Shown here: positions 11,164 through 25,181 of the stretch, one piece after another
How the letters are laid out: the number at the start of each line of letters is the position of its first letter
Numbering within the stretch: the stretch's first letter is position 1
DNA from: Methanolobus sp.
Lineage (GTDB): Archaea > Halobacteriota > Methanosarcinia > Methanosarcinales > Methanosarcinaceae
DNA: 64,000 nt
Assembly (NCBI GenBank): GCA_030154025.1
Contig: JASKKT010000003.1
Coordinates: 1 to 64,000 of the forward strand
Reading direction: 5' to 3'
Position numbers and translations under genes: made by a program
Notes under the pieces: model-generated
Databases searched by the model: none
The model's input: the letters and a program-made list of their open reading frames with translations, nothing else
Told to the model about the DNA's origin: nothing

Positions 11164-12468
11164 TTAGAGAGCTCCTGCTACTGCCTTGATCGGCTCCTTG
11201 AACTCTGGTATTGATCCGAACACGCTGCCCACAAGTGCTGATGTCTTCTCGACTGAGAACATCTGTGTGCCTGCATCGAGTGATACTGCTGCACAGACAC
11301 ATGGAATTGCGAAACCTCTGGAGTGCCTGGTCACAACGTGGTTTCCGTTGAAGATACCCGGTCCGCCTCCACCGTAGATTGAGTGGCTGAAGAAGGAGAA
11401 TCCGACTGCAGTACCCTGTGCCCTTCCCATGTCACAGCCTGGAAGGCCTGTTTCCTTCTCAAGGATGTCGTTGAAGTAGAGGATGGTTGAGGATACGTTC
11501 TGTGCTGCCCTGCCTGCACCACAGTTGACCATGGTTGCTGCAAGCTGTCCTACTGCTGCACATGCATTCCACATGGAAACATCGTTTGCCTTGTAGAATT
11601 TGTATCCGGATGGTGCGGTCTTGTCAACGGAGATGACGCCTGCCTCGAGTGCCTTCTCGACTGTTGACTGAACAACAGTACCGATAGTACCGTTCTTACC
11701 GTTCTCCTTGACGATCTCGTAGACGAAGTTGCCTGCGTTGAGACCCTGGTATGCAAGACCAAGTAACTGGTGCCTCTCGAAAGGACCGACAGCGTTACCC
11801 ATCTCGTACATGCCTACCTGCTCGAAGATGGATGAGAGTGCTGCTGCATTCATTGCCTTCTTGCCGGTGATGGCTGCGATGTGGTTGGTGGTGATGTTCC
11901 TCAGGGAGTATCCGAGACCTTCGTTATTCTGTGGGATACTGAGGATTGATGCAATGTTTCCGCCCTTCATGTCCATGGTCTGCGGGTAGCTTCCCCATAC
12001 AGCGGACTTGACGATTGGTGCGTCGAACATATCGGTCTTGTACATGTCGATGATTGCCTGAACGACTGCTGCGCCGGTCACCGTGCTTGCAGATACATAG
12101 TCAGCGCCTACAAGTGCCCTTACGCTTGGTACCTGTACAAGGAGCTGCTTTCCGCCTGCAAGTACCTTTACGTTGGTGTCATCGCCTTCTTTTGCCCTGA
12201 CGAATCCTGCGACTGAGTCCTGGATCGCACTTGCGTTGGCAACAACATCGTACTTGAGTTCCCTTCCAAGGATCTTGCGTCCGAGGCCACCCATCTTTCC
12301 GCTCTCAAGAGCCTTCTCGATACCGGCGAGGTTGACTGCGACGGTTCTCTTGGTGTCTTTAATGATGTTCTGAATTGCTGCGTTTCTTGTTGGTGCAATA
12401 TCCATAAGATCGACACCACTTTCCAGCAATTTACCTCTATCGTCGTAAATGTCTATTTTATCAGACAC
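11164..12468 (-). CDS. mcrB: methyl-coenzyme M reductase subunit beta
   Basis: Beta subunit of methyl-coenzyme M reductase, 434 residues, first gene of mcrBDCGA. It starts with GTG ([16 protein letters not shown]), supported by AGGAGG eight bases upstream and by the typical family N-terminus. The glycine-rich stretch [24 protein letters not shown] near residue 360, which lines the active-site channel, is conserved. The upstream 335-base spacer is shared with divergent mmp10 and should contain the operon promoter. Confidence 0.99.
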
Positions 12469-12803
12469 GTGTATTTTCCTCCTATGTTCTTATTCAGAAA
12501 TCACCCAACTGGAAATGTACAGTTCGAGTTACTGATGAACAATTACTCTGTACCACATATGTCCTGTACGAAAATTTTCCATCGGGAATTCTCGGAACTA
12601 TTAAGTAACGATGGTGTTTAAACCTTTTGCATCATACTGTTCCCAATCACGTAATCACAAAACATTAATGTAAAATAGTTTTGAAATCGCTTCTCCAATT
12701 ATAATGAATAATATATTTATTAATACTCCGACAGGTCCCTTTGAGGACAGATAAGAATCTATCGCAAAAGTATAAGTAGTACTTATAGTGTCTAAAAAAC
12801 ACT
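12469..12803. other. divergent control region between mcrB and mmp10
   Basis: A 335-base AT-rich spacer. For mcr (minus strand) there are two TATA-like candidates, GGTTTAAAC near 12615-12625 and AATAAATATATT near 12709-12722, which would give 5' leaders of about 120 and 220 bases. For mmp10 (plus strand) a TATA-like element lies in a palindrome at 12771-12787. No coding sequence is apparent. Long mcr leaders are plausible, but only transcript mapping can choose between the candidates. Confidence 0.6.
12771..12787 (+). promoter_or_regulatory. palindromic promoter element of mmp10
   Basis: TATAAGTA-G-TACTTATA is a perfect palindrome with 8-base arms. It overlaps the best TATA box for mmp10, preceded by the purine-rich CGCAAAAG that suits a BRE. 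Transcription would start near 12798-12802, only a few bases before the ATG at 12804. A second small inverted repeat, AGTGT/ACACT, abuts the start codon. The arrangement looks like an operator covering a promoter. Confidence 0.5.
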
Positions 12804-14039
12804 ATGGAAATCATCGCAGATGTGGGGGGAAATCCCGGTGTCGACTGCAAGGGATTCTGTACCTATTGCTATTTCAGGAAGGTAAAGGAAGTGCAGCCCT
12901 TTGGATGCAAACACTGTTTTCCTTTCCTGAAAGGCTGTGACTACTGCACCAGAGGCGTGCGTGAATCATACTCAGGGTTCAAGCCTGCAGAGTACGTATT
13001 CCAGGAAACCTACCAGAAGATACGCTTCAGCCAGGAGGATATCAACAAGATAACCATCAGCGGAGGAGGGGATGTAAGCTGCTACCCGGAACTTATGCCA
13101 CTTGTTGCCAACCTTTCCCAGTTCGGCCTGCCTATCCACCTGGGATACACCAGCGGCAAAGGTTTTGTCGAAGGCAACGAAGCAGAGTTCTTCCTGGGAT
13201 ATGGAGTTACTGAGGTCTCATTCACGGTTTTTTCAACGGACCCCGCCCTGCGTGGGAAATACATGCATGACCCTCATCCTGAGCAATCATTACAGGTGCT
13301 CAGGGATTTCTGCGCCGGCTGCGAGGTCTACGCAGCCATTGTGCTCATCCCCGGAGTGAATGACGGACAGGCCCTTGAAAAGACACTCAGTGATCTGGAG
13401 TCCATGGGAGCGAAGGGAGCCATACTCATGCGCTTTGCCAACAGCCGCGAGGAAGGGCTTATACTTGACAACGCACCGGTCATGGAAAGAATAGATAGCC
13501 AAAGCATAGAGGATTTTGCAGGCATTGTCCGCCAGGCCGCCGGGAAATACAATATGAGAATAACAGGCACACCCCTCGAGGACCCGCTTATCGGCTCACC
13601 CTTTGCCATCAGGAAGGATGAGGAGGCGCTTGCACAACTGCCTGCGGTCCTCAAGGATGCGACACTGCTGACAAGCAGGGCTGCAGCTGACCGCCTTTCT
13701 GAAATCTTTACCAGGCTCAATAGCAGTGTCAATGTGGTTGCGGTTGGAAAGGACATAGGATGCCTCATCACCATAGAGGACCTGGAAGCCCTGGACCTTA
13801 ATGATGTAAAGGAAACAGTTATAATTCCCGGAAGGGCCTTCGTACATGACCCCGAGGCGAAGAAGGTGCTCTCGAGGGACGGTATTGACAGGTTCGTGCG
13901 AAGGGGCCCTGACATGCTCAGCTATGATGGCGAGATGTCCATCGGGATGACCAAAGAGGAAGTCCTCGCTTTTGAGATAGAACAGTTCACTGAGCTGATC
14001 AGTGAGATCAATGCCATAGGGCTTCCGGTCAAAAAGTAA
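12804..14039 (+). CDS. mmp10: methanogenesis marker protein 10, MCR arginine methyltransferase (radical SAM)
   Basis: Mmp10 is a B12-dependent radical SAM enzyme that C-methylates an active-site arginine of McrA. The 411-residue protein has the radical SAM cluster motif [10 protein letters not shown] near residue 16. A further cysteine group [14 protein letters not shown] follows from about residue 35, and [12 protein letters not shown] lies near 85. It is divergently transcribed from mcrBDCGA, whose product it modifies, a frequent arrangement in methanogens. No Shine-Dalgarno is visible and the predicted transcript start lies next to the ATG, so the message may be leaderless. Confidence 0.95.
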
Positions 14040-24452: not shown

Positions 24453-24659
24453 TGAGCACCCCTTTATAAATATTAGTGAGTAGTTTTCTGTGTCGACCGG
24501 ATAGGCCAGCATACCTCAAATATAAATATATTTATTAAAATAAGGTATTGTAAATATAAAAAGATACCTATGAAAGCATCAAGAGTTATAAAGGAGCACT
24601 TTCAGCAAACCAGGCAATATAAACAAGCAGTATTATACTATAATACAAGAAGGAGGATC

Positions 24660-25181
24660 ATGGAAGGAAAGAATGTGAAGGATGTTAAGCTCTTCATTTA
24701 TCACGCAAGCCAGTGTGATCCGAAGAAGTGCACAGGAAAGAAAATGGCACGTTTTGAGCTTGCCCGCCTTTTTGAACAGGTGAACAGGATACCACGGGAG
24801 TCCATTTTACTGGACCCCATGGCTGAGAAAACTCTCTCTCCCGAGGATAATGCCAGAAAGGGAATAACTGTGCTTGATTGCTCATGGGAGCACGTGGAGG
24901 AGGTCTTCCCCCAGCTTGTCAGGCTCAACCTCCAGCACCGTGCGCTGCCTTACCTGGTTGCAGGCAACCCCGTGAATTTTGGCAGGCCGTTCAAGCTCAC
25001 ATCTGCAGAAGCCTTTGCCGCCGCCCTGTACATCCTTGGCCATGAAAGACAGGCCCAGGCAATCATGGACAAGTTCAACTGGGGACACACTTTCCTTGAG
25101 CTGAACCACGAGCCACTTGAGGAATACTCCAGGGCAAAGGACAGTAAGGAAGTACTGCAAATCCAGAGTGAGTACATGTAA
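24660..25181 (+). CDS. tsr3: Tsr3, rRNA aminocarboxypropyltransferase (DUF367)
   Basis: Tsr3 transfers the aminocarboxypropyl group from S-adenosylmethionine to a conserved small-subunit rRNA nucleotide, a late ribosome maturation step. The 173-residue protein starts at the ATG at 24660, directly after AAGGAGGATC, not at the track start 90 bases upstream. Diagnostic segments are [21 protein letters not shown] near the N-terminus, [12 protein letters not shown] and [23 protein letters not shown]. Length fits archaeal Tsr3. It is followed by a LOG-like gene after 19 bases. Confidence 0.93.

Follow-up and report, generated by a model that had tools for sequence, protein, structure and literature searches.

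A perfect palindrome over the mmp10 TATA element of a Methanolobus genome very probably reflects chance symmetry in an ordinary core promoter

In the Methanolobus genome analysed here, mmp10 is divergent from mcrBDCGA, and a perfect palindrome is located exactly over the TATA element of mmp10, which raises the question of whether this site is an operator or an ordinary promoter. The palindrome is confined to one genome, and the site is very probably the ordinary mmp10 core promoter, giving a leaderless or nearly leaderless transcript, with the symmetry as a chance by-product of two substitutions.

Gene arrangement and the mmp10 core promoter

The two divergent genes and the promoter elements between them have the following positions in the window, i.e. 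the whole 64-kb stretch of DNA that was analysed.

11164–12468, minus strand: mcrB, the first gene of mcrBDCGA (TIGR03257, 759.8 bits), with a GTG start and AGGAGG upstream
12615–12622, minus strand: likely TATA element TTTAAACA of mcrBDCGA, with GCAAAAGG before it, a conserved block in the genus alignment
12763–12770, plus strand: BRE-like element CGCAAAAG, adjoining the mmp10 TATA element on its upstream side
12771–12778, plus strand: TATA element TATAAGTA of mmp10
12797–12803, plus strand: predicted mmp10 transcript start, placed from the TATA position, with a leader of about 0–7 nt
12804–14039, plus strand: mmp10, encoding the MCR-arginine methyltransferase (TIGR03278, 598.8 bits)

The spacer between the genes is 335 bp (12469–12803), with about 149 bp from the mcr TATA element to that of mmp10, and this divergent layout is kept in most of the family. 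The mmp10 ATG at 12804 corresponds to residue 1 in alignments with every full-length relative retrieved. The source genome was assigned to Methanolobus because most of the named relatives at 73–85% Mmp10 identity belong to this genus, and the closest same-genus genome compared shows 95% Mmp10 identity. Positions 12469–12640 constitute a long mcrB promoter and leader that is conserved across the genus, with a predicted leader of about 124 nt and the AGGAGG as Shine-Dalgarno sequence, and this region gave no match in Rfam.

The upstream region of mmp10 was compared in 91 distinct sequences, comprising the loci of the contig set and the greater part of the 108 genomes of the family that gave a match; the relatives are other species, and the source species is represented by one genome. 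A TATA-like box of the family type TTTA(A/G)GTA (genus consensus TTTAAGTA) is present in 89 of the 91 loci, where it starts 30–37 bp before the ATG (33 bp here), and nearly all the upstream regions contain a BRE-like element of the CRCAAA/CCAAAAA type. Between -44 and -34 of mmp10, 8–10 of the 11 columns are invariant in three sets of relatives. Conservation collapses upstream of about -60, with 0–2 of 20 columns invariant in -100 to -81 and in -80 to -61, and resumes only where the mcrB promoter and leader begin. There is no Shine-Dalgarno sequence before the mmp10 start, where the sequence when read directly is AGTGTCTAAAAAACACTATGG, and none is found across the mmp10 upstream alignments.

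The distance from the centre of an archaeal TATA element to the start of transcription is usually 22–29 bp, and with the TATA centre at 12774.5 transcription should therefore begin at 12797–12803, indicating that the mmp10 transcript probably has almost no leader. Both the TATA element at the palindrome and the nearly absent leader had been predicted in the earlier note, and the conserved BRE and TATA elements, the TATA-to-ATG distance and the lack of a Shine-Dalgarno sequence agree with that prediction. TBP and TFB would bind the CGCAAAAG/TATAAGTA element (12763–12778), and RNA polymerase would initiate about 25 bp further on, no more than a few bases from the ATG, so that the mRNA would be leaderless or nearly so. 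Leaderless transcripts make up about 16% of those of Methanolobus psychrophilus R15 (PMC5378194), and in the msvR promoter of M. acetivorans the TATA centre is 27 nt before the mapped start, leaving an 8-nt leader (PMC3729527). The mmp10 promoter resembles these in having a BRE and a TATA element, spaced so that transcription would begin no more than about 10 nt from the ATG, and no Shine-Dalgarno sequence, but its start is a predicted one, and the TATA box is also one half of a perfect palindrome. The comparison thereby defines the mmp10 promoter for the family as a whole, with a nearly fixed TATA-to-ATG distance and a transcript that is likely leaderless.

Chance level and conservation of the palindrome

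12771–12787, no strand: perfect palindrome TATAAGTA-G-TACTTATA (i.e. TATAAGTAGTACTTATA), with 8-bp arms and a 1-bp centre, judged fortuitous

As first described, the palindrome is exact (8 of 8 pairs), and its left arm TATAAGTA is the TATA element itself. Its chance level was estimated from six block-wise dinucleotide shuffles of the 64-kb window, and the estimate rests on that window. With arms of 8 bp or more and spacers of 0–10, perfect inverted repeats are found 14 times in the window against 7–12 in the shuffles, and those with spacers of 0–1 are found 6 times against 1–4. The chance of such a repeat falling inside the 66-bp promoter stretch is about 0.011 (0.003 for spacers of 0–1), and inside the whole 335-bp spacer 0.087 (0.021 for spacers of 0–1); the short-range P values for a repeat in the mmp10 promoter, 0.003–0.018, are low, before correction for the search. 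As a repeat, the palindrome is of modest strength: it is uncommon locally, yet a repeat of this kind is expected somewhere in the 64-kb window, and since any promoter in the 64 kb was open to picking, symmetry of this size is not remarkable. The symmetry had been called unusual, which holds for the promoter stretch but not for the window.

A test of the best repeat in each of the 91 distinct mmp10 promoters gave a median P of 0.69 with none at or below 0.01 (two rows of the table are anchored wrongly, on a later TAAGTA, and are to be disregarded), and the few low P values belong to repeats that sit at differing places in each genome, such as TACATATATAATATGTA in locus L040 and AGAGAAAATTTTCTCT in L106. 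Locus L040 (genome G057) is from another Methanolobus and has its repeat at -26 to -10 of mmp10; since it is a different repeat, it shows that such symmetry arises separately in AT-rich mmp10 promoters. A second AT-rich perfect palindrome with 8-bp arms, GTATTATACTATAATAC, is located at 24630–24646 of the window, just upstream of an ORF starting at 24661, which we take to resemble Tsr3.

An alignment of mcrB-mmp10 spacers from related genomes had been suggested in the earlier note, and it shows that the palindrome is not conserved, the closest species included, which is the outcome that the note itself had named as speaking against its operator. When the 91 loci are compared in the same register the palindrome is perfect only in the source genome, with 8 pairs, followed by 6 of 8 in its nearest relative (G040, 95% Mmp10 identity), 5 in four loci and 1–4 in the rest; three other close relatives keep 4–5 pairs. 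The five closest genomes read TATAAGTAGTACTTATA (the source genome), TTTAAGTAGTACATATA (G040, with the right-arm sequence TACATATA), TTTAAGTAGTACAAATA, and twice TTTAAATAATACAAATA, while two further members of the genus share the TATAAGTA box but lack a right arm to match it. Among the five, 12 of the 17 palindrome columns are invariant versus 28 of the 30 other columns of the -47 to -1 block, so the palindrome varies more than its surroundings, although the difference is suggestive only (Fisher P = 0.08). No pair with a two-sided, compensatory change was found in the alignment of the relatives. Within the genome, allowing up to 2 mismatches, the palindrome occurs in this single place, the same pattern read backwards gives as many or more matches, and a search of the genus found no exact copy elsewhere.

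Parsimony places both of the symmetry-completing changes on the branch of the source genome itself. That both of them raise the symmetry is a mild coincidence, though the site was picked for being symmetric. A T to A change in the TATA element and an A to T change in the AT-rich sequence downstream would have completed the palindrome around TTTAAGTAGTACAWATA in this lineage, and we infer that the palindrome has no binding protein of its own.

Expression of mmp10 and MCR output

The proposal that mmp10 output is matched to that of MCR is partly borne out in M. acetivorans, where a gradual decrease of mmp10 mRNA accompanies the lowering of mcr expression (PMC11267899), but the promoter there does not carry the palindrome. 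As seen in the upstream alignment, the mmp10 promoters of Methanosarcina are without such a palindrome, and any coupling between mmp10 and MCR is therefore independent of it; the palindrome is not needed to explain the joint decrease of mmp10 mRNA and MCR in M. acetivorans.

It is possible, though we put it forward only tentatively, that local coupling of the divergent promoters, e.g. by supercoiling, makes mmp10 follow mcr with no operator involved. This would concern regulation and is compatible with an ordinary promoter at the site. The conservation of the divergent layout in most of the family is in line with such coupling, and so is the fall of mmp10 in a strain where tetO1 had been inserted in the divergent mcr promoter (PMC11267899), but this position of tetO1 also means that local coupling and feedback are not separated in that strain. 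Against a purely local effect, cfbE, which is found at another locus, fell too (PMC11267899), pointing to some effect in trans. Compared by eye for a shared operator, the upstream sequences of cfbE show nothing resembling the mmp10 element, and as Methanosarcina cfbE seems to be located closely downstream of another reading frame, its promoter may lie elsewhere.

Inverted repeats as possible protein-binding sites or RNA structure

12785–12805, no strand: inverted repeat ATAGTGT-CTAAAAA-ACACTAT, with 7-bp arms, overlapping the end of the palindrome on one side and the AT of the ATG on the other

The AGTGT/ACACT repeat reported at the start of mmp10 is present and is longer than described, with arms of 7 bp that run into the ATG at 12804. 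It might be a clade-specific operator or start-site element lying across the start of transcription and the ATG, but this is unlikely. The repeat is unique in the genome and is identical, loop included, in five close species, whereas hardly any conservation is seen upstream of about -60. However, the first 23 coding bases of mmp10 are also invariant in the five species, and since the loop and these coding bases are as identical as the arms, nothing singles out the arms themselves. In the sister group and other genera the arms are broken without compensation, no covariation was found in them, and the shuffle P is only 0.02–0.04. As a candidate for a clade-specific protein site the repeat may be considered a weak lead.

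The segment between the TATA element and the ATG of mmp10 is genus-specific and near-invariant within some clades, and in the source genome it includes the inverted repeats. An undescribed regulator that binds this segment, tunes Mmp10 to MCR and has changed together with its site between genera could be imagined from this pattern, but is quite improbable.

The palindrome had been proposed as an operator, and in such a case a dimeric repressor would bind TATAAGTAGTACTTATA, block TBP and match Mmp10 to MCR output, the operator being specific to this species. A symmetry that is perfect over 17 bp and falls exactly on the TATA box would suit a protein of this kind, methanogens do have dimeric repressors blocking the BRE/TATA region, such as MsvR (PMC3729527), and the decrease of mmp10 mRNA with lowered mcr expression in M. 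acetivorans (PMC11267899) would fit as well. Nevertheless, this explanation is very unlikely, as the palindrome is missing in every relative, shows no compensatory change and has no second site in the genome, where the backwards pattern matches at least as often, and as M. acetivorans shows the coupling yet has no such palindrome. A plausible but unsupported operator can with this be struck from the list. The MsvR operator of M. acetivorans is a partial inverted repeat, TTCGTAN4TACGAA, and shares with the mmp10 palindrome a location at or near a methanogen BRE/TATA, from which a bound dimer would keep out TBP/TFB, but the palindrome has another sequence and spacing and is not conserved. An MsvR site (TTCGN7-9CGAA) is absent from the mcrB-mmp10 spacer (12469–12803), and an operator regulon was rejected, with neither the palindrome nor the lower repeat having a second genomic copy. 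An mRNA hairpin of the 12785–12805 repeat hiding the mmp10 start codon is hardly credible: a 7-bp stem covering the AU of the AUG does form in the predicted RNA fold, but the 5' arm is located upstream of the predicted transcript start, the fold z-score is only -0.92, there is no Rfam match, the arms are broken in other genera and no conserved promoter is found upstream.

In Methanosarcina (loci L080–L103) the sequence AATACGAAAGTTTRAT is found between the TATA element and the ATG, at about -16 to -1 of mmp10, and is nearly invariant in 21 species, while the region further upstream is not invariant. The near-invariant segment AATACGAAAGTTTRATATGG was searched as a shared element in six genomes, where it matched with 0–1 mismatch at mmp10 only. 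The sequence AATACGAAAGTTTRAT is unlike the AT-rich melted region that would be expected at this position.
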